Assembly: GCF_014196125.1 (NCBI RefSeq)
Contig: NZ_JACIDA010000001.1
Location: forward strand, 1,240,001 to 1,304,000
Direction of reading: 5' to 3'
Length of the DNA stretch: 64,000 nt
From: Brevundimonas mediterranea
GTDB lineage: Bacteria > Pseudomonadota > Alphaproteobacteria > Caulobacterales > Caulobacteraceae
Below are positions 48,611 through 59,118 of the stretch, piece after piece. A model generated the notes under the pieces. It searched no databases, was not told the origin of the DNA, and saw only the letters and a list, made by a program, of their open reading frames with translations. A program made the position numbers and the translations under genes. How positions within the stretch are numbered: position 1 is the stretch's first letter; each line of letters begins with the position of its first letter.

Positions 48611-51316
48611 TCAGACCGACAGGCGGCTCAGCGCGGCCTGGAAGTTGGCGAGTTGGGTCTGGTAGTAGGCGCTTGATGAACCTTTTCCGGTCTGGGTATT
48701 GGTGATCGTGCCGGTCGAGGGCGCCAGCGACTTGTAGGCGGACCGAACGGCCGTCATCGCCTGGGCGATGCCCTCGTTCGCCGCCTTGATCGAGGCCGGA
48801 TCGTTCAGGTTCAACAGGGTCGACAGATTCAGACCGAAGGTCTTTGGCGCATCCTTGTCCGGCTTGACGGGGCTGACGAAGCCGGGGGTCAATCCCAGGG
48901 CCGCCAGGGCGTCCTTGCCGACTGCGCCAGACGAAATGATGGCGCCCTCCCGGTTCGCCGCCGTGGATATCTGCAGCCGCTGGGTAACGGGTACGGCCTT
49001 CAGGTCCGTCACCACCTTGGCGTCCAGCTGGCGGCCCGAGGCGTTCACGATCTTCTTGGCCAGAGTCTCCAGCGTGTCCTTGGCCTCGATCGTCACGGTG
49101 ACGGCCCGCCCGCCGCCTGCCGGCGAAATGCTGAACTGATCCCCGACCCGCGCGGCGGTCCCGATCGTCAGCAGCTTGGAGTCCGCCTGCATGATCTCGC
49201 CCTGCGGCAGCCCCAGCCGGTCCAGCACGCTGGAACCGCCTGCGGCGAAGCTCAGACTGGTCGGTTTGGCCTGGTCGTCAGCGGCGCGCCAGGTCTTGTT
49301 CTGGTCCACCGCGCCTGTCGCCAGGTCGATACGCGCCAGATAGCCCTGGGTCGGACTGTCCTTGGTCGCGCCCTCGGCGCGGTTCGTGCCGGTGATCCAG
49401 ACCTTGCCGTTCTTGATTTCGACATCGGCGGCGGTGTCGTCGCCCGCCCCGCCGAAATAGGTCAGCCGGTCGCTGCCCGACGCCTGAAGATCGGCCGACA
49501 GGGTGGCGACGAACACGTCCTTGCCGCCGGCGTGGGCGTTGGTCACCGTGCCGATGTCCAGCGCGCCGTTATCGGTATGGCCGGTCACGACGACCTTGCC
49601 GTTTTCCACCGATACGCCCGCGATTTCACCGCTGGCGTAGCCCAGGTCGCGAGTCGAGGCCAAGGTCGGCACACCCTCTGCATTGAGGGTGAAGCGCCGG
49701 ACGATGGCCTTTCCGTTCTCGACCCCGGCCGTATAGAGGTCTGAACCGGACACCGTCATCGCCTGGACGGAATCGTCGCCGGCGCCGCCGAACTGCAAGG
49801 TGGAGACATTCACCCCGGCGATCGGCCCGGTCACGGTCAGGGGCTTTTCCTGGAAGGTCTGTAGATAGGAATCCCATCCGCCCAGGGCCACGGTCCCCGA
49901 CATGGCCGATTTGGACCGTCCCGCCACATACACTACGCCGTTGGCGCCGAAACTGACCTCCGTCGCCTCGTCGGCGGCCTTGGCGCCTCGACGCTGGGTC
50001 CACAGTTCCTTGCCGGAGTCATCGAAAAGCGTGACGAAACTGTCGGCGGTCGTGGCGCTGTCGCCGCTCTTGCCCGGCACCAGCGCCCCTGTGACCGAAC
50101 CGGCCAGGGCCACACGTCCTTCGCCGTCGATGGCGATGGAGAAGCCGTTCGCGCTGGACGCCGCCCCCAACAGCTTGGTCTGCATCAGGTTGCCGGCGGA
50201 ATCATACTTCATCAGGGCGACGTCGCGCGTGCCCTTGATCGGCTGGGCTGCGTCGCCGGCCTTCAGATCGGCCACGACCCAGATCGAACCGTCCGGAGCC
50301 ACGGCGCTGGCTCGCACCGCCTCGACGCCGTCGGGCATCTCGGTATGCCCGACCCGGCCCTCGACCCAGAAGGGATCGTTTACGCCCTGCTGCGCGGCGG
50401 GCGCAGCGCCGCCGTCGGCCTGGAACTTCAATATCTGTCCCGCGCCGGCCTTGCCGACGCCCTGGGTCACATAGACGGCGTCGGACGTATCGACCGCCGC
50501 GAAACTGACCTTCTCGCCCGCACCGCCCGTGACCTTCAGAGCCCACTGGTCCGGCCCGGCCGGCAGGGTGATGGTCTTGTCGCCGGACTTGATCGTCTTG
50601 GGCTCCGCGGGGATGTATTGCGTCCCTACCCGCGTCGCGACGCCGGCCGCCTCCAGCTTGCCGTTCATATAGTTGACGACATTGACCATCGACCGTTCGG
50701 TGGAGCCCATCTCGGACAGGTCCATGGCGACGGTCTGGCTTCCGGTCTCGGTCTTGGCCGTTATCGAGAACTTGACGTCGCCTTCGAACGCGGCGACCGG
50801 GCTTGTGGCGACGCCCTGGTGAAGCGGTGCGGTCGTGAAGGTCGTCGGCGCCCGCTCCAGCGCATAGCCGGTCTTGACTTTGGTCTGGGACACGCCCTGC
50901 ACCAGGCGGACGTCCTCGAAGTCGGCGGTCTTAAGATAGGCCGACATCTCGGCCAATCCCTCGCTGAAGCGTTTCGACACCTGCGCGGCTTCCGCAGCCG
51001 TCAATCCCTTGACGCCCGCGCGATCCGCCAGGGCGCTGAGGCTGTTCAGTCCCTGATAAAGGGCGAACATCTTGCGATAGTCGCTGGACGCGCCCGACAG
51101 GTCCAGTTCGACCGAACCTTCGTTGATGATGTTTCGTCCCGCCAGGGCCGCCCGCACCAGCTCGCTGGCCTTGGGCGCAGTCGCCGACGCGGTCGAAGCC
51201 CACGGCGCCGTGGGCTGGGTCTTCTTTGGCTTAGCTGCAGGCGTGTTTGAGCCGATCAGCGACCCGGTGTCCGTCGTGATCCCGTAGAGACCCAGCAGAT
51301 AGCTGTTGTTTATCAT
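48611..51316 (-). CDS. flaEY: FlaEY-like flagellar filament regulatory protein
   Basis: A 901-residue protein at the end of the flagellin cluster, the position of flaEY in Caulobacter crescentus, where it is needed for normal flagellin use. No signal peptide. The N-terminal 130 residues are helical (YRKMFALYQGLNSLSALADRAGVKGLTAAEAAQVSKRFSEGLAEM). The middle carries repeated SBBP/propeller-like units (FGGAGDDSVQAMTVSG, FGGAGDDTAADVEIKNG). Near residues 715-800 is a flagellin/hook-type insertion domain (ISPAGGGRAVTVTIEAKDTLETLAKKIVNAS). It starts 62 bp after a flagellin stop. Identity by position and layout. Confidence 0.8.
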   Translation of the reverse strand: MINNSYLLGLYGITTDTGSLIGSNTPAAKPKKTQPTAPWASTASATAPKASELVRAALAGRNIINEGSVELDLSGASSDYRKMFALYQGLNSLSALADRAGVKGLTAAEAAQVSKRFSEGLAEMSAYLKTADFEDVRLVQGVSQTKVKTGYALERAPTTFTTAPLHQGVATSPVAAFEGDVKFSITAKTETGSQTVAMDLSEMGSTERSMVNVVNYMNGKLEAAGVATRVGTQYIPAEPKTIKSGDKTITLPAGPDQWALKVTGGAGEKVSFAAVDTSDAVYVTQGVGKAGAGQILKFQADGGAAPAAQQGVNDPFWVEGRVGHTEMPDGVEAVRASAVAPDGSIWVVADLKAGDAAQPIKGTRDVALMKYDSAGNLMQTKLLGAASSANGFSIAIDGEGRVALAGSVTGALVPGKSGDSATTADSFVTLFDDSGKELWTQRRGAKAADEATEVSFGANGVVYVAGRSKSAMSGTVALGGWDSYLQTFQEKPLTVTGPIAGVNVSTLQFGGAGDDSVQAMTVSGSDLYTAGVENGKAIVRRFTLNAEGVPTLASTRDLGYASGEIAGVSVENGKVVVTGHTDNGALDIGTVTNAHAGGKDVFVATLSADLQASGSDRLTYFGGAGDDTAADVEIKNGKVWITGTNRAEGATKDSPTQGYLARIDLATGAVDQNKTWRAADDQAKPTSLSFAAGGSSVLDRLGLPQGEIMQADSKLLTIGTAARVGDQFSISPAGGGRAVTVTIEAKDTLETLAKKIVNASGRQLDAKVVTDLKAVPVTQRLQISTAANREGAIISSGAVGKDALAALGLTPGFVSPVKPDKDAPKTFGLNLSTLLNLNDPASIKAANEGIAQAMTAVRSAYKSLAPSTGTITNTQTGKGSSSAYYQTQLANFQAALSRLSV

Positions 51317-51378
51317 CTCACATGGCTCCGGCGATTACAGTGCGGCCGAGCCCGATAACGAAGTCTTAAGCCGCGGCG

Positions 51379-52296
51379 TCAGTTCTTAAACAGCGACAGG
51401 ATCATCTGCGGCGCCTGGTTGGCGATCGACAGGGCCTGGACGCCGAGCTGTTGCTGCACCTGCAGGGCCTGGAGACGGGCGCTTTCCTTGGCCAGGTCGG
51501 CGTCGACCAGATTGCCGATGCCGGCTTCCAGCGAGTCCGAAAGCTTGCCGACATAGGTGGTGTGGCGTTCGATCTGCTTGGCCTGCGCCCCCAGTTCGGA
51601 CAGTCGTGAACTGGCCACCGAGATGGCGTCGTCGATCCGCTGCAGCGCGAACTTGGCTTTTTCCTGGGTGAGCAGATCAGGGGCGGCGTTCAGCAGGGTC
51701 TCGTTTTCCGGCGTGCCGGCATTGTCGGTCCAGGCGTCGATCGCCGCAGTCGCCTTGTTCGAGTCATACGAGTTGGCCGCCAGGCCCAGGCCGACAAGCG
51801 TCAGATTCTGACGCTTCATCGCAATGGTTTCATTGCCGTCCGCACTCGCCAGGAACGTCATGTCGGTCGTGGCGGCGCCGTCGAGAATATTGGCCCCGTC
51901 GAAGATGGCGTTGTCGGCGAAGGACTGCACCGACTTCAACAGCGCCTGGAATTCCTGGTCATAGGAGGCGCGCGTCGCGGTGCTCTGGCTAGGATCGGCT
52001 GCAGCGGTCGCCTTCTGCTTCATTTCCAGCAGAATGTCCGAGATCTGTTCGCCTGCGGCCAGAGAGACGTCGGCGATCGAGGTCGCCCGGTTCAGGCTGG
52101 TCGTGACGGCTTCCAGAGACCCCTTGTCGGCGCGCTGTCCCTGGGCGACAGCCCATACGGCGGCGTTGTCCTTGGCGCCCTGGACCTTCAGGCCCGTATT
52201 CACCCGGCTCTGCGTCGACGCCAGCTGGTCGCTGGTGCGGTTCAGATTTTGCAGGGCGATCATCGCCGAGGTATTGGTGTGGATGCTGGTGGTCAT
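51379..52296 (-). CDS. flagellin, divergent (FljJ-like)
   Basis: A 305-residue flagellin. N-terminal D0/D1 MTTSIHTNTSAMIALQNLNRTSDQLASTQSRVNTGLKV, a central variable part of about 110 residues, and C-terminal D1/D0 ending LGVQALSIANQAPQMILSLFKN. It is the most distant of the seven flagellins here: longer, with a different tail (NQAPQ for NSASQ), and without the CGCC-AAAAU-GGCG start-codon hairpin. By position between flaEY and flaG it corresponds to the FljJ type, the flagellin nearest the hook in Caulobacter. Its leader holds two inverted TTAACCAT elements. Confidence 0.92.
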   Translation of the reverse strand: MTTSIHTNTSAMIALQNLNRTSDQLASTQSRVNTGLKVQGAKDNAAVWAVAQGQRADKGSLEAVTTSLNRATSIADVSLAAGEQISDILLEMKQKATAAADPSQSTATRASYDQEFQALLKSVQSFADNAIFDGANILDGAATTDMTFLASADGNETIAMKRQNLTLVGLGLAANSYDSNKATAAIDAWTDNAGTPENETLLNAAPDLLTQEKAKFALQRIDDAISVASSRLSELGAQAKQIERHTTYVGKLSDSLEAGIGNLVDADLAKESARLQALQVQQQLGVQALSIANQAPQMILSLFKN

Positions 52297-52331
52297 GGCT
52301 TCAAGCCCCGGACGTTCTGTTCCCTGCAGGA

Positions 52332-52360
52332 TTAACCATGAGTCGTGAGCGTATGGTTAA
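52332..52360. promoter_or_regulatory. paired TTAACCAT elements upstream of FljJ-like flagellin
   Basis: TTAACCAT (52332-52339) and ATGGTTAA (52353-52360): a perfect 8-bp inverted repeat with 13 bases between, 35-64 bp before the flagellin start. TTAACCAT is a CtrA half-site form described for Caulobacter. A full TTAA-N7-TTAA is not present. Confidence 0.5.
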
Positions 52361-52430
52361 CGACGGAGAAAGCATGTTTGCGCCGCCCGGCAAGCCGGCG
52401 ACGTTGGGTTCGCTTGACTGAAAGGCCTCG

Positions 52431-52727
52431 CTAGATCGAGGTCTTCAGCAGATTTCCGCCCTTGTAGTCCGGGTCCTTGGCCAGATCCTGAACCACCTCT
52501 CGCGGCAGTTTCAGCACCACCTGACCTGTTACCGGGTCGCTGACCGTATAGATGTAACGGCCGTTTTCAGCCGTCTCGATGGTCAGGCGGTAGTTGCTGG
52601 ACTCGCCCTTTTCCTCGACTGCGGTCTTTGGCGACTGCGGCTTGGCTGGAGGCGAATAGGCTGCGAGGTCGGTGTTTTCGGAAGCAAAAATCCTTACCGG
52701 CGGTACGCTCGCGACATTGTCTACCAT
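52431..52727 (-). CDS. flaG: FlaG-family flagellar protein
   Basis: A 98-residue FlaG-like protein. The family block is SNYRLTIETAENGRYIYTVSDPVTGQVVLKLPREVVQDLAKD, after a variable N-terminus. FlaG proteins affect filament length or assembly in other bacteria. It lies between the divergent flagellin and the six-flagellin array, with GAGGAG four bases before its ATG. A terminator-like hairpin separates it from the flagellin upstream, so it may have its own promoter. Confidence 0.85.
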   Translation of the reverse strand: MVDNVASVPPVRIFASENTDLAAYSPPAKPQSPKTAVEEKGESSNYRLTIETAENGRYIYTVSDPVTGQVVLKLPREVVQDLAKDPDYKGGNLLKTSI

Positions 52728-52778
52728 GGCTCCTCGCGCGGATGGACCGCGCCCTTCTAGGTTTGAAAGAGAGCGAAG

Positions 52779-52806
52779 GGTCGGAACGGCGAAAACCGTC
52801 CCGACC
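52779..52806 (-). terminator. hairpin after flagellin at 52815
   Basis: On the minus strand GGTCGG-g-ACGG, loop TTTTCG, CCGT-t-CCGACC: 10 pairs with one mismatch, nine bases after the stop of the last flagellin of the array. Confidence 0.55.
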
Positions 52807-52814
52807 GATCAGTC

Positions 52815-53612
52815 TTAACGGAACAGGCTCAGCAGCGTCTGGCTGGCCGAGTTGGCGATCGACAGCGCCTGCACGCCCAGCTGTTGCTTGGTTTGCAGGG
52901 CCGTCAGCTTGGCGCTTTCCTTGGCCAGGTCGGCGTCCACCAGATTGCCCACGCCGGCTTCAAGAGCGTCCTGAAGCTTGTTGACGAAGGTGATGCTGCG
53001 TCCCAGCGACTTCGATTTGGTGCCGAAATCGGACAGGACGCTGGTGAAGGCGGTGATGGCCGAGTCGACCGTGGCCACGATGGTGGCCGCGTCGCCGGCC
53101 ACAGCCGTCGTCGTGGTCGCTACCGCAGTGTCCGCACCTGCAATGGCCTTCAGCGTGTAGGAGGTCGAAGAACCGGTCTGCACGGTGATGGCGGCAGCGT
53201 TCGCCTTGTACAGGTTGACGCCGTCGAAGGTGGCGCCTCCCAGTGCGCTGGCGATTTCCGTGCCGATGGCGTTGTATTCCGCCAGATACGAAGTCTGGGC
53301 GGCGCCGGTCGACCCGGCGATGCTGACCGCCAGGCCCTTCTGTTCTTCCAGCGCGCTCGTGATCGTATCGCCGGCGGCCAAGGCCACATCGACGATCGAT
53401 TGACCGCGCTGGATCGAGCTGCGGACCGCGTCCTGCGACGCGGCGGCTGCACGTTGCGACGTGGCGATCGAGAAGATCGCCCCGCTGTCCTTGGCCGACG
53501 AGACCTTCATGCCGGTGTTGATGCGGTTTTGAGTCCGCTCCAGCTCCGAGCTGGTCTTGTTCAGGTTTTGCAGCGCGATGGCCGCGCCGTAGTTCGTATT
53601 GATGCTCGCCAT
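52815..53612 (-). CDS. flagellin, array member 6 of 6
   Basis: A 265-residue flagellin with near-invariant ends shared by the array (N-terminus MASINTNYGAAIALQNLNKTSSELERTQNRINTGMKV; C-terminus LGVQALSIANSASQTLLSLFR). The short variable centre (about residues 125-180) is Thr/Ala/Val-rich. Its helix segment RAAAASQDAVRSSIQRGQSIVDVA is intermediate between the two classes of its neighbours. Exported by the flagellar type III system and polymerised in the filament. The leader at 53607-53675 carries the three A-loop hairpins. Last gene of the array in transcription order. Confidence 0.97.
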   Translation of the reverse strand: MASINTNYGAAIALQNLNKTSSELERTQNRINTGMKVSSAKDSGAIFSIATSQRAAAASQDAVRSSIQRGQSIVDVALAAGDTITSALEEQKGLAVSIAGSTGAAQTSYLAEYNAIGTEIASALGGATFDGVNLYKANAAAITVQTGSSTSYTLKAIAGADTAVATTTTAVAGDAATIVATVDSAITAFTSVLSDFGTKSKSLGRSITFVNKLQDALEAGVGNLVDADLAKESAKLTALQTKQQLGVQALSIANSASQTLLSLFR

Positions 53613-53675
53613 TTTGGCGTTCCTTCTTCACTTCGTGATGGCCGGCGCCGTTTTGGCGACGGGAGCGTTTTGCTC
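53607..53675 (-). promoter_or_regulatory. triple A-loop hairpin leader of flagellin 52815
   Basis: In transcription order: GAGC-AAAAC-GCTC (53663-53675), CGCC-AAAAC-GGCG (53646-53658), a small TCAC-GAA-GTGA stem, AAGGA, then CGCC-AAAAT-GGCG (53607-53619), whose loop contains the start codon. Confidence 0.75.
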
Positions 53676-53691
53676 GGGGTTCAAGACCTAT

Positions 53692-53717
53692 GGCCCGGTC
53701 GTCGAGACGACCGGGCC
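53692..53717. terminator. perfect 12-bp intercistronic stem
   Basis: GGCCCGGTCGTC, GA, GACGACCGGGCC between flagellins 53726 and 52815, without a T-run on either strand. It may protect a processed 3' end or terminate weakly. Equivalent stems are at 54612-54637, 55469-55494 and 56395-56420, each with one mismatch. Confidence 0.55.
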
Positions 53718-53725
53718 TCCGGGCC

Positions 53726-54532
53726 TTAGCGGAAGAGGCTCAGCAGCGTTTGGCTGGCCGAGTTGGCGATCGACAGCGCCTGCACGCCCAGCTGTTGCTT
53801 GGTTTGCAGAGCCGTCAGCTTGGCGCTTTCCTTGGCCAGGTCGGCGTCCACCAGATTGCCGACACCGGCTTCAATCGAGTCCTGAAGCTTGTTGGTGAAG
53901 GTGATGCTGCGGCCCAGCGACTTGGACTGGGTGCCCAGGGTCGAAAGGGCGCCGGTGACAGCCGTGATGGCGGCGTCGACGTTGGCGGTCGTGTACTGAG
54001 CGACCGTGCCTGCGGTGAAATAACCCAGCTCCGTATTGGCGCTGAGGGCTGCCGCCGTACCCAAAACCTTGGTGTCGGATGCACCCGTTCCAGTCCGGAC
54101 CGTAGTGGTCGCACCGGAAGCGGTGTTCAGCAGGTTGACACCGTCAAAGCTCGCGCCGGCCAGAGCACTGTTAATTTCCGTACCCAGGGCCGTGAACTCG
54201 GCTTGGTAGGACGTCAGTGCAGCGCCGGTGGATCCGGCGATGCTGACCGCGAGGCCCTTCATCTCTTCCAGAGCGGAAGTGATGGTGTCGCCGGCGGCCA
54301 GGGCCACATCGACCATCGATTGACCGCGTTGCATGGAGCTGCGGACCGCGTCTTGAGCGGAAGCGTTCGCCCGTTGACCCGTAGCGATCGAGAAGATCGC
54401 GCCACTGTCCTTGGCCGACGAGACCTTCATGCCGGTGTTGATGCGGTTTTGAGTCCGCTCCAGCTCCGAGCTGGTCTTGTTCAGGTTTTGCAGCGCGATG
54501 GCCGCACCGTAGTTCGTATTGATGCTCGCCAT
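53726..54532 (-). CDS. flagellin, array member 5 (type A)
   Basis: A 268-residue flagellin of the array with the type A helix RANASAQDAVRSSMQRGQSMVDVA and a variable centre including TTVRTGTGASDTKVLGTAAALSANTELGYF. It is a close copy of the flagellin at 55503: same class, with most changes confined to the centre. With the type B gene at 54646 it forms one copy of a two-gene unit of about 1.78 kb. Secreted filament subunit. Leader hairpins lie at 54527-54595. No sigma-54 promoter is visible in its 113 bp upstream gap. Confidence 0.97.
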   Translation of the reverse strand: MASINTNYGAAIALQNLNKTSSELERTQNRINTGMKVSSAKDSGAIFSIATGQRANASAQDAVRSSMQRGQSMVDVALAAGDTITSALEEMKGLAVSIAGSTGAALTSYQAEFTALGTEINSALAGASFDGVNLLNTASGATTTVRTGTGASDTKVLGTAAALSANTELGYFTAGTVAQYTTANVDAAITAVTGALSTLGTQSKSLGRSITFTNKLQDSIEAGVGNLVDADLAKESAKLTALQTKQQLGVQALSIANSASQTLLSLFR

Positions 54533-54595
54533 TTTGGCGTTCCTTCTTCACTTCGTGATGGCCGGTGCCGTTTTGGCGCCGGGAGCGTTTTGCTC
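54527..54595 (-). promoter_or_regulatory. triple A-loop hairpin leader of flagellin 53726
   Basis: GAGC-AAAAC-GCTC (54583-54595), GGCGCC-AAAAC-GGCACC (54564-54580, six pairs with one G-U), and the start-codon hairpin CGCC-AAAAT-GGCG (54527-54539). Confidence 0.75.
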
Positions 54596-54645
54596 GGGGT
54601 TCAAGACCTATGGCCCGGCCGTCGAAACGACCGGGCCTCCGGGCC

Positions 54646-55389
54646 TTAGCGGAAGAGGCTCAGCAGCGTTTGGCTGGCCGAGTTGGCGATCGACAGCGCC
54701 TGCACGCCCAGCTGTTGCTTGGTTTGCAGAGCCGTCAGCTTGGCGCTTTCCTTGGCCAGGTCGGCGTCCACCAGGTTGCCCACGCCGGCTTCAAGCGCGT
54801 CCTGATACTTGTTCACGAAGGTGATCTGGCGACCCAGCGACTTGGACTGGGTGCCCAGCGTCGACAGGGCGCCCGTGACGGTGGCGATGGCCGAGTCAAT
54901 GGCAGTCGTCGTTGCGTCGCCACGCGCTTTGCTCCCGCCGGCGACGGCGGTGACGGTTGCGCCAGCCAAGGGTGTGGTCAGGCTGTTCACGCCATCGAAA
55001 GAGGCGCCAGAGATCGAAGAGGTGATCTCCAGGCTCAACGCATTGTATTCGGCCAGATAGGAGGTTTCCGCGCTGGAACCAGCGGTCGAGGCCGCGATGC
55101 TGACAGCCAGGCCTTTCATCTCTTCCAGAGCGGAAGTTATGGTGTCGCCGGCGGCCAGGGCCACATCGGTGATCGACTGTGTGCGTTGCAGACCCGAGCG
55201 GACCGCATCCTGAGACGCGGCGGTGGCCCGCTGCGACGTGGCGATCGAGAAGATCGCCCCGCTGTCCTTGGCCGAAGAGACCTTCATGCCGGTGTTGATG
55301 CGGTTTTGAGTCCGCTCCAGCTCAGAGTTGGTCTTGTTCAGGTTCTGCAGCGCGATAGACGCGCCGTAGTTCGTATTGATGCTCGCCAT
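54646..55389 (-). CDS. flagellin, array member 4 (type B)
   Basis: A 247-residue flagellin, shorter than type A because the variable centre is reduced. It has the type B helix RATAASQDAVRSGLQRTQSITDVA and VGNLVDADLAKESAKL. It is almost identical in sequence and length to the flagellin at 56429, differing mainly around residues 140-160. The N-terminus has NYGASIALQNLNKTNSELERTQ, unlike the GAAIA-SSEL of members 5 and 6. Filament subunit. Leader hairpins at 55384-55452. Confidence 0.97.
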   Translation of the reverse strand: MASINTNYGASIALQNLNKTNSELERTQNRINTGMKVSSAKDSGAIFSIATSQRATAASQDAVRSGLQRTQSITDVALAAGDTITSALEEMKGLAVSIAASTAGSSAETSYLAEYNALSLEITSSISGASFDGVNSLTTPLAGATVTAVAGGSKARGDATTTAIDSAIATVTGALSTLGTQSKSLGRQITFVNKYQDALEAGVGNLVDADLAKESAKLTALQTKQQLGVQALSIANSASQTLLSLFR

Positions 55390-55452
55390 TTTGGCGTTCC
55401 TTCTTCACTTCGTGATGGCCGGCGCCGTTTTGGCGACGGGAGCGTTTTGCTC
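55384..55452 (-). promoter_or_regulatory. triple A-loop hairpin leader of flagellin 54646
   Basis: GAGC-AAAAC-GCTC (55440-55452), CGCC-AAAAC-GGCG (55423-55435), start-codon hairpin CGCC-AAAAT-GGCG (55384-55396). Confidence 0.75.
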
Positions 55453-55502
55453 GGGGTTCAAGACCTATGGCCCGGCCGTCGAGACGACCGGGCCTCCGGG
55501 CC

Positions 55503-56315
55503 TTAGCGGAAGAGGCTCAGCAGCGTTTGGCTGGCCGAGTTGGCGATCGACAGCGCCTGCACGCCCAGCTGTTGCTTGGTTTGCAGAGCCGTCAGCTTGG
55601 CGCTTTCCTTGGCCAGGTCGGCGTCCACCAGATTGCCGACACCGGCTTCAATCGAGTCCTGAAGCTTGTTGGTGAAGGTGATGCTGCGACCCAGCGACTT
55701 GGACTGGGTGCCCAGGGTCGAAAGGGCGCCGGTGACGGCCGTGATGACCAGATCGACGTTGGCGGTCGTGAAGTCGGCGACAGTCGGCGACGCCGCCGTA
55801 AACTTGGCCAGGTCGGTATTGGCGCTGAGAGCGGCAGCCGTACCCAGAACCTTGGTGTCGCCAGCGCCCGTGCCGGTGCGGACCGTGGTGGTCGCGCCCG
55901 AGGCGGTGGTGAGCAGATTGACGCCGTCGAAGCTCGCGCCGTCAAGAGCGGACTTGATTTCCACACCCAGAGCCGTGAACTCAGCCTCGTAAGACGTCTT
56001 TGCAGCGCCGGTGGACCCGGCGATGCTGACCGCGAGGCCCTTCATCTCTTCCAGAGCGGATGTGATCGTGTCGCCGGCGGCCAGGGCCACATCGACGATC
56101 GATTGACCGCGCTGCATGGAACTGCGAACCGCATCCTGAGCGGAAGCGTTCGCCCGCTGTCCGGTGGCGATCGAGAAGATCGCGCCGCTGTCCTTGGCCG
56201 TTGAGACCTTCATGCCGGTGTTGATGCGGTTTTGAGTCCGCTCCAGCTCCGCGTTGGTCTTGTTCAGGTTCTGCAGCGCGATAGACGCGCCGTAGTTCGT
56301 ATTGATGCTCGCCAT
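55503..56315 (-). CDS. flagellin, array member 3 (type A)
   Basis: A 270-residue type A flagellin, the duplicate of the gene at 53726, with helix RANASAQDAVRSSMQRGQSIVDVA and centre TTVRTGTGAGDTKVLGTAAALSANTDLAKFTAASPT. It differs from its partner by a two-residue length change and scattered substitutions in the variable centre, showing that the surface-exposed part diverges first. Leader hairpins at 56310-56378; a stem at 56395-56420 separates it from the gene upstream. Confidence 0.97.
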   Translation of the reverse strand: MASINTNYGASIALQNLNKTNAELERTQNRINTGMKVSTAKDSGAIFSIATGQRANASAQDAVRSSMQRGQSIVDVALAAGDTITSALEEMKGLAVSIAGSTGAAKTSYEAEFTALGVEIKSALDGASFDGVNLLTTASGATTTVRTGTGAGDTKVLGTAAALSANTDLAKFTAASPTVADFTTANVDLVITAVTGALSTLGTQSKSLGRSITFTNKLQDSIEAGVGNLVDADLAKESAKLTALQTKQQLGVQALSIANSASQTLLSLFR

Positions 56316-56378
56316 TTTGGCGTTCCTTCTTCACTTCGTGATGGCCGGCGCCGTTTTGGCGCCGGGAGCGTTTTGCTC
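56310..56378 (-). promoter_or_regulatory. triple A-loop hairpin leader of flagellin 55503
   Basis: GAGC-AAAAC-GCTC (56366-56378), GGCGCC-AAAAC-GGCGCC (56347-56363, six perfect pairs), start-codon hairpin CGCC-AAAAT-GGCG (56310-56322). Confidence 0.75.
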
Positions 56379-56428
56379 GGGGTTCAAGACCTATGGCCCG
56401 GCCGTCGAGACGACCGGGCCTCCGGGCC

Positions 56429-57172
56429 TTAGCGGAAGAGGCTCAGCAGCGTCTGGCTGGCCGAGTTGGCGATCGACAGCGCCTGCACGCCCAGTTGTTG
56501 CTTGGTTTGCAGAGCCGTCAGCTTGGCGCTTTCCTTGGCCAGGTCAGCGTCCACCAGATTGCCCACGCCGGCTTCAAGCGCGTCCTGATACTTGTTCACG
56601 AAGGTGATCTGGCGACCCAGCGACTTGGACTGGGTGCCCAGCGTCGATAGAGCGCCGGTGACGGTGGAGATGGCGGTATCGATCTTGGCGGTTGTGGCGT
56701 CTGCGCGAGCCTTGCTACCGCCGCTGACGTCAGTCACGCCGGCGACGCCCAGAGGCGTCGTCAGGCTGTTGACGCCGTCGAACGAGGCGCCGGAGATCGC
56801 AGAGGTGATTTCCAGGCTCAAGGCGTTATATTCCGCCAGATAAGAGGTCTCGGCGCTGGAACCGGCCGTCGAGGCCTGAATGCTGACCGCCAGACCCTTC
56901 ATCTCTTCCAACGCGGTCGTGATCGTGTCGCCTGCGGCCAGCGCCACGTCGGTAATCGACTGGGTGCGTTGAAGACCCGAGCGGACCGCGTCCTGCGATG
57001 CGGCGGTGGCGCGTTGAGACGTGGCGATCGAGAAGATCGCGCCGCTGTCCTTGGCCGAAGAGACCTTCATGCCGGTGTTGATGCGGTTTTGAGTCCGCTC
57101 CAGCTCAGAGTTGGTCTTGTTCAGGTTCTGCAGCGCGATAGACGCGCCGTAGTTCGTATTGATGCTCGCCAT
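56429..57172 (-). CDS. flagellin, array member 2 (type B)
   Basis: A 247-residue type B flagellin, the duplicate of the gene at 54646: helix RATAASQDAVRSGLQRTQSITDVA and centre FDGVNSLTTPLGVAGVTDVSGGSKARADATTAKIDTAI. It is the first gene of the five-flagellin stretch with uniform spacing and has the region's clearest sigma-54 promoter 74 bp upstream, with two ftr-type enhancer sites about 90-135 bp further out. It probably leads a transcript of five flagellins. Confidence 0.97.
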   Translation of the reverse strand: MASINTNYGASIALQNLNKTNSELERTQNRINTGMKVSSAKDSGAIFSIATSQRATAASQDAVRSGLQRTQSITDVALAAGDTITTALEEMKGLAVSIQASTAGSSAETSYLAEYNALSLEITSAISGASFDGVNSLTTPLGVAGVTDVSGGSKARADATTAKIDTAISTVTGALSTLGTQSKSLGRQITFVNKYQDALEAGVGNLVDADLAKESAKLTALQTKQQLGVQALSIANSASQTLLSLFR

Positions 57173-57233
57173 TTTGGCGTTCCTTTCACTTCGTGAGATC
57201 CAACGCCATTTTGGCGAAGGGAGCTTTTTGCTC
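57167..57233 (-). promoter_or_regulatory. triple A-loop hairpin leader of flagellin 56429
   Basis: GAGC-AAAAA-GCTC (57221-57233) begins within one or two bases of the transcript start predicted from the sigma-54 promoter. CGCC-AAAAT-GGCG occurs twice, at 57204-57216 and, containing the start codon, at 57167-57179, as identical 13-mers. Confidence 0.78.
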
Positions 57234-57245
57234 GGTGGGTAAGAA

Positions 57246-57260
57246 GCAATTGCCGGGCCA
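57246..57260 (-). promoter_or_regulatory. sigma-54 promoter of flagellin 56429
   Basis: TGGCCC-GGCAA-TTGC on the minus strand: GG and GC are separated by ten bases, as sigma-54 requires, and TTGCTT follows the -12 consensus. The transcript start would be near 57234. Confidence 0.8.
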
Positions 57261-57331
57261 GAGGCGACGGCGAAATATCAGCGTAACTTATTGAAAAGTC
57301 GCGTTTACTATTGATTTACCCTCCCTGGATG

Positions 57332-57350
57332 CCCGGCAATATTTGCCGAC
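57332..57350. promoter_or_regulatory. ftr-type (FlbD) enhancer site, proximal
   Basis: CCCGGCAATATTTGCCGAC: CGGCAA/TTGCCG dyad as in Caulobacter ftr elements bound by FlbD. About 85-100 bp upstream of the sigma-54 promoter, a normal enhancer distance. Confidence 0.7.
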
Positions 57351-57362
57351 TGAAGGCCATGA

Positions 57363-57382
57363 TCCGGCAGAATTTGCCGAGC
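57363..57382. promoter_or_regulatory. ftr-type (FlbD) enhancer site, distal
   Basis: TCCGGCAGAATTTGCCGAGC: a second CGGCA/TTGCCG dyad, its centre about 32 bp (three helical turns) from that of the proximal site, so both would lie on the same face of the DNA. Confidence 0.7.
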
Positions 57383-57449
57383 AGGGTCTAAAAATGTGGC
57401 GCGGCCGGCGACCGACCGCGCCCCGAAAGAGACGCGCCTGAAGGCCGCC

Positions 57450-58262
57450 TTAGTTCCGGAAGAGGCTCAACAGGGTCTGGCTGGCCGAGTTGGCGATCGA
57501 CAGCGCCTGCACGCCCAGCTGTTGCTTGGTTTGCAGGGCGGTCAGCTTGGCGCTTTCCTTGGCCAGGTCAGCGTCCACCAGGTTGCCGATGCCGTTCTCG
57601 GTAGCGTCCTGCAGCTTGTTGACGAAGGTGACCTGACGGCCGACCGACTTGGACTGGGTGCCCAGCGTCGACAGGGCGCCGGTGATTTTGGTGATGGCCG
57701 CATCGACGACCGCCGTCGTCGCGGCTGCTGCGGTGATGGTCTGGCTGGTGATGGTGGTGATGTCGGTGTCCGCCGCCATGCCGCCGGCGACCGTGAAGCC
57801 GATGGCGGTGGTGCCGCCGCTGACGTCCTTGATCAGGTTCGTCGCGGTCGCGCCTGTCCACAGATTGACGCCGTCGAAGGTCGCGCCGGCCAGGGACGAC
57901 GTGATTTCAGCGCCCAGCGCACGGAATTCGGTCAAGTAGGAGGTCTGGGCGGCGCCGGTGGAAGCGGCCAGGCTGACGGCCAAACCCTTCATCTCTTCCA
58001 GGGCGGCGGTCACGGTGTCGCCCGAGGCCAGGGCCACGTCGACGATAGATTGGCCGCGTTGCAGCGATGCCCGCACGGATTCCATGGCGCCCATGTTGGC
58101 GCGTTGGCCGGTCGCGATGGCGTAGATCGCGCCGCTGTCCTTGGCGGAGGAGACCTTCATGCCGGTGTTGACGCGATTTTGCGTCATTTCCAGCTGGGCG
58201 TTGGTCTTGTTCAGGTTTTGAAGCGCAATTGCTGCGCCGTAATTCGTATTGATGCTCGCCAT
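57450..58262 (-). CDS. flagellin, array member 1, separately promoted
   Basis: A 270-residue flagellin with array-type ends (MASINTNYGAAIALQNLNKTNAQLEMTQNRVNTGMKV; SANSAS-type tail ending LLSLFRN). Its helix is distinct (RANMGAMESVRASLQRGQSIVDVA) and its variable centre is Thr-rich (DITTITSQTITAAAATTAV). The most diverged of the six array members. The start is MASINTN at 58262; the longer open frame to 58433 runs into the promoter. It has its own sigma-54 promoter at 58340 and a 188 bp-separated neighbour downstream of it. Confidence 0.96.
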   Translation of the reverse strand: MASINTNYGAAIALQNLNKTNAQLEMTQNRVNTGMKVSSAKDSGAIYAIATGQRANMGAMESVRASLQRGQSIVDVALASGDTVTAALEEMKGLAVSLAASTGAAQTSYLTEFRALGAEITSSLAGATFDGVNLWTGATATNLIKDVSGGTTAIGFTVAGGMAADTDITTITSQTITAAAATTAVVDAAITKITGALSTLGTQSKSVGRQVTFVNKLQDATENGIGNLVDADLAKESAKLTALQTKQQLGVQALSIANSASQTLLSLFRN

Positions 58263-58326
58263 TTTGGCTGCCCTCTTCACTTCTGTGCATGTACGACGCC
58301 GTTTTGGCGTCGGGAGCATTTTGCTC
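58258..58326 (-). promoter_or_regulatory. triple A-loop hairpin leader of flagellin 57450
   Basis: GAGC-AAAAT-GCTC (58314-58326), GACGCC-AAAAC-GGCGTC (58295-58311, six pairs), CAC-AGAA-GTG, and a weaker start-codon hairpin GCC-AAAAT-GGC (58258-58268). Confidence 0.7.
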
Positions 58327-58339
58327 CGCCCTCCTAAGA

Positions 58340-58354
58340 GCAAAGGCGGGGCCA
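58340..58354 (-). promoter_or_regulatory. sigma-54 promoter of flagellin 57450
   Basis: TGGCCC-CGCCT-TTGC on the minus strand, with exact GG-N10-GC spacing. The transcript would start near 58328, again directly at the first leader hairpin. Confidence 0.78.
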
Positions 58355-58430
58355 CGCTGGCACGGCGAGAAAACCCAGGTGAACTTCTGATTTTGTTGAA
58401 TTTTTCCAAATCAGCCGCACATCGGCTCGG

Positions 58431-58467
58431 CAACTTCCGTCGCGCGGCGGCAGAAGTTGCCGAGTCG
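58431..58467. promoter_or_regulatory. ftr-like inverted repeat upstream of flagellin 57450
   Basis: TCGGCAACTTC and GAAGTTGCCGA form a perfect inverted repeat around about 15 bases; each arm contains the CGGCAA/TTGCCG half of an ftr element. Roughly 80-115 bp above the sigma-54 promoter. It also overlaps the zone just after the Rz1 stop and could end that transcript. Confidence 0.6.
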
Positions 58468-58484
58468 TTTTTGCCGCTTTGCGG

Positions 58485-58799
58485 TCAGGGTCGGTCTTTC
58501 GCCGCCTCCGATATATGGGCGTCCTGCATGGCCCGCTCCGCCAGCAGGGTCTCCACCGCCAACCGCCTCGCCCCGTCGCAGGCCAGGATCTGGGCGCCGC
58601 GCTGCACATAGGCGGCGTCCAGGTCCCCGGCTGTGGGTTCAGCCGGCAAGATCGCCAGGGCGCACGGCCGCATCGCCGCCTCGGGCAGGCTGAGCCGCAC
58701 CGGCGCAACCGTCGAGATCGGGAGCGAGCCGGCACAGCTCGCGGTCATGAGCGCGCAGATGATCGGCGCGGCGGCTTTCCAGAACAGTTTCGGCGTCAT
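58485..58799 (-). CDS. Rz1-like outer-membrane spanin lipoprotein
   Basis: A 104-residue lipoprotein in a different frame from the Rz gene, which it overlaps by 161 bp before extending beyond it. A signal peptide leads to MTASC with the lipidated Cys22. The mature part follows the Rz1 pattern: LPEAAMRPCALAILPAEPTAGDLDAAYVQRGAQILACDGARRLAVE, with Pro, paired cysteines and the DL...Q...C...R order. Together with Rz it would fuse inner and outer membranes in the last lysis step. The overlapping-frame layout is itself typical of spanin pairs. Confidence 0.78.
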   Translation of the reverse strand: MTPKLFWKAAAPIICALMTASCAGSLPISTVAPVRLSLPEAAMRPCALAILPAEPTAGDLDAAYVQRGAQILACDGARRLAVETLLAERAMQDAHISEAAKDRP

Positions 58800-59118
58800 C
58801 GGCGCTCCTGGCCTGTGCGACGGCGGTCGCGGTCAAGCGGGCCGCCGTCGTCTGCTGTTGTTGAAAATCATCGAAACGGCGCAGCTGTTCGTCCGCCCCC
58901 TCGGCCTCGAGACGACGCGCCGCCGCCTGGGCGCGGGCGTCACGCTCGCCGGCCGCAGCCCGCGCCTCGGCCGCCGCCAACCGGTGCTGCTGCAGGTTCA
59001 GCGGGTCCCAGCGAAAGCCCAGGCCGCCCAGAAGCGTGGCCGCCAACCCCGCGACGACTCCCGCTACGGCGATCCAGCCGAGCGGCGTCAGCGCCTTCAG
59101 GATCGACACCGCCCTCAT
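58639..59118 (-). CDS. Rz-like inner-membrane spanin
   Basis: A 159-residue protein with one N-terminal membrane helix (about residues 13-34, LGWIAVAGVVAGLAATLLGGLGF) and a long Ala/Arg/Glu/Gln-rich periplasmic coiled coil (LAAAEARAAAGERDARAQAAARRLEAEGADEQLRRFDDFQQQQT). This is the inner-membrane spanin layout. Its ATG overlaps the endolysin stop by four bases (ATGA), and its 3' third contains the start of Rz1 in another frame. Confidence 0.78.
   Translation of the reverse strand: MRAVSILKALTPLGWIAVAGVVAGLAATLLGGLGFRWDPLNLQQHRLAAAEARAAAGERDARAQAAARRLEAEGADEQLRRFDDFQQQQTTAARLTATAVAQARSADDAETVLESRRADHLRAHDRELCRLAPDLDGCAGAAQPARGGDAAVRPGDLAG

Follow-up and report, generated by a model that had tools for sequence, protein, structure and literature searches.

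The flagellin array and its leaders

The window analysed here is a 64,000-nucleotide stretch of the Brevundimonas mediterranea contig NZ_JACIDA010000001.1 (positions 1,240,001 to 1,304,000). It contains an array of six tandem flagellin genes on the minus strand, identified from open reading frames (ORFs) and Pfam, with starts at 58262, 57172, 56315, 55389, 54532 and 53612. The leader of each gene carries a series of small hairpins (HP) with A-rich loops, in the order HP1, HP2, HP3, Shine-Dalgarno sequence and HP4 from 5′ to 3′, the last hairpin being located at the start codon. A seventh flagellin of another type lies 3′ of the array (start 52296); its protein begins with MTTSIHTN and it is referred to below as the VHTN paralog, as distinct from the structural flagellins of the array.

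The first gene (57450–58262; all features of the array are on the minus strand) encodes Flagellin_N and Flagellin_C domains identified by Pfam and starts with the ATG at 58262. It is preceded by a sigma-54-like promoter, GGCCCCGCCTTTGC (58340–58353), which is recognised by its sequence and by the HP1 spacing seen across leaders. The hairpins of this leader are HP1 (GGAGC-AAAAT-GCTCC, 58313–58327) and HP2 (CGACGCC-AAAAC-GGCGTCG, 58294–58312), both identified in the sequence by the hairpin scan and by R1, a covariance model of HP1-HP2, followed by HP3 (CAC-AGAA-GTG, 58278–58287), read from the sequence, and HP4 (58258–58268), read from the sequence and supported by the codon-2 test described below. 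The HP4 of this gene has the inner three pairs only (GCC-AAAAT-GGC), with an outer A/G mismatch. The next gene (56429–57172) has its own sigma-54-like promoter, GGCCCGGCAATTGC (57246–57259), identified in the same manner. Its leader contains HP1 (GAGC-AAAAA-GCTC, 57221–57233), HP2 (CGCC-AAAAT-GGCG, 57204–57216), HP3 (TCAC-GAA-GTGA, 57186–57196) and HP4 (CGCC-AAAAT-GGCG, 57167–57179), with the ATG within the loop and 3′ arm of HP4.

The remaining four genes have the same arrangement, with HP1 and HP2 matched by R1 and HP4 covered by the codon-2 test in each case. The gene starting at 56315 (55503–56315) is preceded by HP1 (56366–56378) and HP2 (56345–56365), HP3 (TCAC-GAA-GTGA, 56331–56341) and HP4 (CGCC-AAAAT-GGCG, 56310–56322). 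The corresponding positions are 55440–55452, 55423–55435, 55405–55415 and 55384–55396 for the gene at 54646–55389; 54583–54595, 54567–54577, 54548–54558 and 54527–54539 for the gene at 53726–54532; and 53663–53675, 53646–53658, 53628–53638 and 53607–53619 for the last gene, at 52815–53612. None of these four leaders contains a sigma-54-like site, and the six genes may therefore share a single transcript that is then processed.

HP1 has the form GAGC-AAAAN-GCTC in all six leaders, and the HP2 core GCC-AAAAN-GGC is likewise present in all six, often with a longer stem. HP3 is located just 5′ of the Shine-Dalgarno sequence and reads TCAC-GAA-GTGA in the five genes other than that at 58262. In five of the six genes HP4 is CGCC-AAAAT-GGCG, the loop and 3′ arm of which contain ATG GCG. 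A preliminary description of this DNA had reported three hairpins in each leader; HP1, HP2 and the start-codon hairpin are present as described, and the series comprises four because HP3 had been overlooked. The five copies of the start-codon hairpin that it listed stood when the coordinates were rechecked. RNA folding predicts HP1, HP2, HP3 and the start-codon hairpin in five of the six leaders, with 57172 as the exception. A role of the hairpins as terminator or attenuator was rejected, as no U run follows them in the leaders of the window.

Conservation of the hairpin series

Relatives of the array were collected as 79 loci obtained from the best 80 of 525 candidates, mostly from Caulobacterales, with some from Hyphomonadaceae and unclassified alphaproteobacteria. 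The window and these loci gave 180 flagellin leaders, of which 179 were long enough for analysis (137 structural and 42 VHTN); one leader, from L016, was dropped due to its short upstream sequence. Four leaders counted as structural (L009 2010, L038 4401, L052 4488 and L075 4554) resemble the regulatory paralog, which lowers the structural counts that follow.

Two or more hairpins with an A(A/G)AAN loop (ARAAN; stem of at least three pairs) are present in 103 of the 137 structural leaders and in none of the 42 VHTN leaders, and at least one is present in 118 and in one, respectively. Dinucleotide-shuffled leaders contain two or more in 0.16% of cases. Of the other 34 structural leaders, 11 also reach two once loops of 4–6 nucleotides are allowed (for example AGAA and AGAACC); the VHTN count remains 0 of 42. 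The ARAAN loop is found in 278 hairpins and its complement NTTYT in 2 in the same leaders, and the signal therefore sits on the mRNA strand. All other five-nucleotide loops pooled, that is all but 8 of the 1024 possible words, account for 406 hairpins at a stem of three pairs, and at a stem of four pairs they account for 172 against 223 with ARAAN. Among the 168 ARAAN hairpins with a stem of at least four pairs located upstream of position −10, the closing pair is C-G in 158, whereas the final loop position can hold any base (T 75, C 61, A 26, G 6). The repeated unit may be described as a short stem, mostly closed by C-G, that presents an A(A/G)AAN loop or a near form (AGAA, GAA).

The spacing of the series is also constrained. 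The loops of HP1 and HP2 are 17 or 18 nucleotides apart in 86 of the 88 structural leaders having both. A sigma-54-like site precedes 84 of the 118 leaders with HP1 and is absent from 34, and in 73 of these 84 leaders HP1 starts 13–14 nucleotides beyond the −12 C, which would place its first base near +2 or +3 as judged from the promoter sequence. This location is consistent with the hairpins being stabilisers that work without a protein, in which HP1 would guard the 5′ end against RNase E and pyrophosphohydrolase and HP2 and HP3 would tune decay and ribosome access. The predicted energies of HP1 and HP2 in two examples from the window (−3.7 and −17.3 kcal/mol) fit such a role. A pure stem, however, would need no invariant loop on the sense strand, as seen in the numbers of ARAAN and NTTYT hairpins, and HP3 and HP4 are weak in the window examples (−0.8 and −5.3 kcal/mol) yet are retained with changing stems. 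We consider this explanation unlikely.

A hairpin near the Shine-Dalgarno sequence is present in 118 of the 137 structural leaders (19% in shuffles) and in 6 of the 42 VHTN leaders (15% in shuffles). The stems around the GAA or AAA at this site vary and include CCA/TGG, TCAC/GTGA, CCTT/AAGG, GTC/GAC and TTGT/ACAA. The series ends differently in Caulobacter- and Phenylobacterium-like leaders, where the final hairpin, CCAGAATGG, is located on the Shine-Dalgarno sequence and not at the start codon.

Paired changes and the start-codon hairpin

Paired changes were followed in 36 HP1-HP2 segments, which were selected visually, with diversity in mind, among 72 distinct segments (92 in all), each with two hairpins of five-nucleotide loop. 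Two-sided changes are present in 8 of the 10 pairs, with 61 two-sided change cells against 16.4 in shuffles and a covariation of 0.470 against 0.174. Paired cells make up 89.9% of the total, and at most 48.4% once the partners are slid by 1–3 columns. Because the segments were selected for two hairpins, the inner three pairs are biased toward pairing, and the weight of this result rests on the double changes, the outer pairs and the counts from unselected leaders. A quick tree built from 133 flagellin proteins requires at least 6 changes of paired state at one HP1 pair, at least 19 at one HP2 pair and at least 9 at the outer HP4 pairs. Stem conservation in relatives, which had been set beforehand as a check on the hairpins, is thus borne out by arms that change in pairs.

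The start-codon hairpin occurs in Brevundimonas-like and Hyphomonas-like leaders. A four-pair HP4 is present in 59 of the 137 structural leaders, 58 of which have the ARAAN loop; when codon 2 was permuted among leaders, the mean was 17 and the maximum 29 in 2000 trials. The 5′ arm tracks codon 2, with AGCC accompanying GCT, GGCC accompanying GCC, CGCC accompanying GCG, CGTC accompanying ACG and CACC accompanying GTG, and the resulting arm types are AGCC/GGCT, GGCC/GGCC, CGCC/GGCG, CGTC/GACG and CACC/GGTG.

These changes bear on whether the palindromes act at the DNA level, as sites bound by a transcription factor (FlbD, for example) downstream of the sigma-54 promoter. Many of them do lie just 3′ of sigma-54-like promoters (84 of 118), and palindromes further upstream resemble ftr enhancers of FlbD; these are CGGCAAATATTGCCG (57334–57348), CGGCAAATTCTGCCG (57365–57379) and CGGCAACTTCTGCCG (58448–58462), on the minus strand and upstream of both sigma-54-like promoters of the array. 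DNA sites would need conserved half-sites, yet the arms change in pairs while the loop stays constant, the series is retained in operon-internal leaders without such a promoter, and HP4 extends into codon 2 with matching changes. We regard a DNA-level role as very improbable.

The gene at 56429–57172 differs from the rest of the array in that its HP2 and start-codon hairpin are the same 13-mer, as the preliminary description had noted and as is seen in the sequence. The further suggestion that this repeat acts as a decoy or as a dual recognition site was not supported. Among 52 leaders with HP2 and an ARAAN start-codon hairpin, the identical 13-mer is found only at 57172 and in its relative in L002, and in both leaders the arms of the self-complementary 13-mers are predicted to mispair HP2 with HP4. 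For 57172, the predicted minimum free energy is −28.0 kcal/mol against −19.0 kcal/mol for the local hairpins. Over the 52 leaders the local fold is predicted for HP2 in 49 and for HP4 in 50; the leader L010 3007 is the additional case in which HP2 is predicted not to form. The identical 13-mer was accordingly rejected as a conserved device.

Restriction of the series to flagellin leaders

A search of the whole 3.41 Mb genome with R1 at E up to 1 gave six matches, which are the six array leaders. In this search 150 of 1866 first-look candidates were scored, so weak further matches may be missed; stricter filters were used in the family and class searches. Within 60 genomes of the family, R1 gave 59 matches in 45 genomes, and 58 of these precede flagellin or flagellin-like frames. 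For 47 matches the flagellin is 34–43 nucleotides downstream, and for a further 11 flagellin (9) or divergent flagellin-like (2) frames were read from the DNA downstream. The remaining match (G259, E 0.0046) has no flagellin-like frame downstream. R1 gave no match in 15 family genomes; 5 of these belong to the 7 lacking a flagellin at the cut-off used, and the other 10 bear flagellins and were missed. Two matches, L234 and L236, lie before very divergent flagellin-like frames (G270 and G293), which are possibly unusual flagellins under the same control.

Among 241 genomes of the class, R1 at E 0.01 gave matches in 13. Eight of these have the match before a flagellin, including three (G076, G170 and G193) that were not used in model building. 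The other five matches are weak (E 0.001 to 0.009) and have no flagellin within 1.5 kb; two of them are in genomes with FlbT, the flagellin regulator discussed below.

No Rfam family was found in the flagellin array at the gathering threshold, the only match elsewhere in the window being transfer RNA. At E up to 1, the region 51000–59000 gave one chance match to a CRISPR repeat (E 0.97) located inside a coding region. Rfam matches to mmgR and ncS54 in locus L086 were set aside, as they are below the gathering score.

The VHTN paralog

The VHTN paralog (51379–52296, minus strand) is a flagellin of 305 amino acids by ORF and Pfam analysis, and the leader scan found no hairpins before it. This protein is probably of the regulatory FljJ type. 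Among the 60 PDB rows listed for it, some are FljK, FljL, FljM or FljN and none is FljJ.

The leader of this gene (52297–52400, minus strand) contains TTAACCAT ... ATGGTTAA. The first of these is present in 34 of the 42 VHTN leaders, 10 of which also have an inverted partner; among 138 structural leaders, 7 contain it. A sigma-54-like site is found in 5 of the 42 VHTN leaders. TTAACCAT resembles CtrA boxes, which would place the VHTN paralog in an earlier expression class.

Other features of the region

A GC-rich inverted repeat (GGCCCGG...CCGGGCC) with no U run is located at 56395–56420, after the stop codon and between array genes, and similar inverted repeats lie before 55389, 54532 and 53612. 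Directly 3′ of the flagellin genes is an ORF of 901 amino acids (48611–51316, minus strand).

Association with FlbT and proposed control of the leaders

FlbT is described in PMC3930126 and PMC4347634 as binding the flagellin 5′ untranslated region; the table in the latter, a review, gives no RNA motif for its recognition and calls the mechanism unresolved. According to PMC7591256, and also PMC9812332, FlbT and the flagellin paralog FljJ repress translation of the five structural flagellins, and this repression lasts until the export of FljJ. Control of flagellin leaders by FlbT is known as a class of mechanism. The genome under study encodes one FlbT (PF07378 at C1:942010-942384, E 5.2e-44), followed by FlaF.

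FlbT is present in 87 of the 241 class genomes and in all eight that have R1 matches in flagellin leaders. The link was further examined with 40 leaders from 24 FlbT-positive genomes and 40 leaders from 40 FlbT-negative genomes, a non-random sample taken among the strongest flagellin matches listed. Outside Caulobacterales, an ARAAN hairpin is found in the examined leaders of 14 of 22 FlbT-positive genomes against 5 of 40 FlbT-negative genomes (Fisher p 8e-5, descent ignored). At least two are found in 7 of 24 FlbT-positive genomes (G052 and G233, both from the genus of the window, and G067, G099, G165, G201 and G236) against none of 40. A hairpin near the Shine-Dalgarno sequence is present in 17 of the 40 FlbT-positive leaders (15% in shuffles), with CCG/CGG included, and in 7 of the 40 FlbT-negative leaders (12% in shuffles).

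We consider it likely that the hairpins together form an RNA operator with several sites on the structural flagellin mRNAs, and its most likely reader is FlbT together with a flagellin co-repressor. In the layout proposed, HP1 would lie about 2–3 nucleotides from the transcription start in leaders with a sigma-54-like promoter, the HP2 loop 17–18 nucleotides past the HP1 loop, HP3 beside or on the Shine-Dalgarno sequence, and HP4 around the start codon in Brevundimonas-like and Hyphomonas-like leaders. FlbT and the co-repressor, a paralog of the FljJ type, would bind the loops of the series, and the bound complex would cover the ribosome site and expose the mRNA to decay. Upon completion of the hook-basal body the co-repressor would be exported and translation could begin. 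The mRNA of the regulatory paralog would escape this control because its own leader lacks the series. Structural flagellins with the hairpins and a VHTN paralog without them would be expected under the Caulobacter scheme if the operator consists of these hairpins.

Several observations weigh against this interpretation. There is no ARAAN hairpin in 8 of the 24 FlbT-positive genomes (G001, G029, G041, G046, G063, G149, G162 and G220), 17 of the 24 do not have two, and five FlbT-negative genomes have one. R1 matches precede flagellins in only 8 of the 87 FlbT-positive genomes, and R1 found nothing in G153, a member of the same order that encodes FlbT. FlbT, flagellin family and phylogeny are correlated with one another, so that the link does not stand apart from descent. 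The loop rule is loose in Caulobacter-like leaders, which have loops of 4 or 6 nucleotides, and the Brucella FlbT is described as an activator. The class-wide link is partial. The earlier proposal that FlbT may act on these hairpins fits the genomic evidence.

This incompleteness leaves some room for a different RNA-binding protein as the reader of the loops, either Hfq through its A-R-N face or some further factor. The distal face of Hfq prefers A-R-N triplets, and ARAAN includes the triplets A-R-A and A-A-N. All six matches in the genome are in flagellin leaders, however, and a global chaperone would be expected to have sites elsewhere too; moreover, the series goes with FlbT. We consider such a reader improbable. 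CsrA was excluded as the reader in this genome (G000), as PF02599 has no match there.

Comparison with known systems

The closest counterpart of the proposed operator is the FlbT control of flagellin mRNA reported for Caulobacter crescentus (Anderson and Gober 2000; Ardissone et al. 2020). The two are alike in the bacterial order, the target genes and the flagellin leader as site of action, and both have FlbT and FlaF genes and a flagellin-like paralog apart from the structural ones. The element described here differs in being a repeated series of A-loop hairpins, with two-sided covariation, a start-codon version and a defined taxonomic range.

The CsrA-FliW-flagellin control of Bacillus hag and Campylobacter flaA is similar in its purine-rich hairpin loops and its several leader sites, one of which is over the ribosome site. 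In Bacillus hag, the CsrA repressor is released through a flagellin-linked partner. The loops here are AAAAN or AGAAN and not GGA, this genome has no CsrA, and FlbT has an extra helical domain. The flg-Rhizobiales RNA motif (RF01736) is also an alphaproteobacterial candidate structured RNA with a name tied to flagellar genes (PMC2864571), but the array leaders have no match to it at the gathering threshold or at E up to 1.

Part of the hairpin series may already be in print. A predicted loop in the fljK leader was reportedly named by Anderson and Gober in 2000. The A-loop series, its range, the start-codon version coupled to codon 2 and the relation of FlbT to CsrA were not found in Rfam or in the literature searched, which comprised titles, abstract openings and some passages.

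A possible relationship of FlbT and CsrA

Predicted models of FlbT have five short strands followed by a helix in residues 1–48. These strands match CsrA in number and order, but the fold searches described below list no CsrA. An hhalign comparison of FlbT residues 1–48 (37 rows) with alphaproteobacterial CsrA (28 rows, one a 9-residue fragment) gave a score of 28.2 and a probability of 85.7. Control comparisons with 150 column-permuted CsrA profiles (149 shuffles and 1 reversal) averaged 10.0 and reached at most 18.2, and those with FlaF and flagellin scored 9 to 11.

Other searches did not recover the relationship. The 18 close FlbT rows alone gave no significant match to CsrA (E 0.043), and hmmscan of a single FlbT against Pfam to E 1 identified FlbT only and no CsrA model. 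Foldseek, run for the full FlbT model and separately for residues 1–48, gave no match at E ≤0.001, and VIA-align of the strand part gave nothing above Z 2.7, with no CsrA among the matches listed in either search. CsrA is a strand-swapped dimer; the FlbT models compared in the fold searches were monomers. The helical part (model m08faeeec196e, residues 48–137) resembles four-helix bundles by VIA-align, with FliS chaperones at Z 7.4–7.9 level with unrelated bundles. Kinship of FlbT and CsrA is therefore a supported lead and not a fact, as the 18-row set, the fold searches and the single-sequence Pfam scan do not show it.

The two proteins seldom occur together. Of the 241 class genomes, 87 encode FlbT and 51 encode CsrA (50 over the curated cut-off), and both are present in 3 (G072, G149 and G176) against 18.4 expected. 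Among the 115 flagellin-bearing genomes (E 1e-15), 2 have both, 54 have FlbT only, 41 have CsrA only and 18 have neither (Fisher p 1.3e-14, descent ignored).

It is conceivable, at a little under an even chance in our estimate, that FlbT is a divergent CsrA in which a CsrA-like five-strand RNA-binding domain is fused to a helical domain that holds the flagellin co-repressor, and that it has replaced CsrA with a shift of the target loop from GGA to ARAAN. On this hypothesis, the replacement would concern roughly every second alphaproteobacterium with flagellin, and the layout known from CsrA, in which several hairpins end on the ribosome site, would be retained. The start codon itself could then become a site, tying codon 2 of the flagellin to the leader.

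With a loop rule, a covariance model and lists of the leaders that have or lack the element, FlbT recognition becomes directly testable. Flagellin control of the CsrA type was likened to FlbT and FlaF of Caulobacter in 2016 (PMC4894983); no statement of a common origin was met in the partly covered literature naming both proteins. If FlbT is a divergent CsrA, the two flagellin control systems that this paper treats as analogous would form a single family, which would explain why FlbT and CsrA occur in a complementary manner among alphaproteobacteria.

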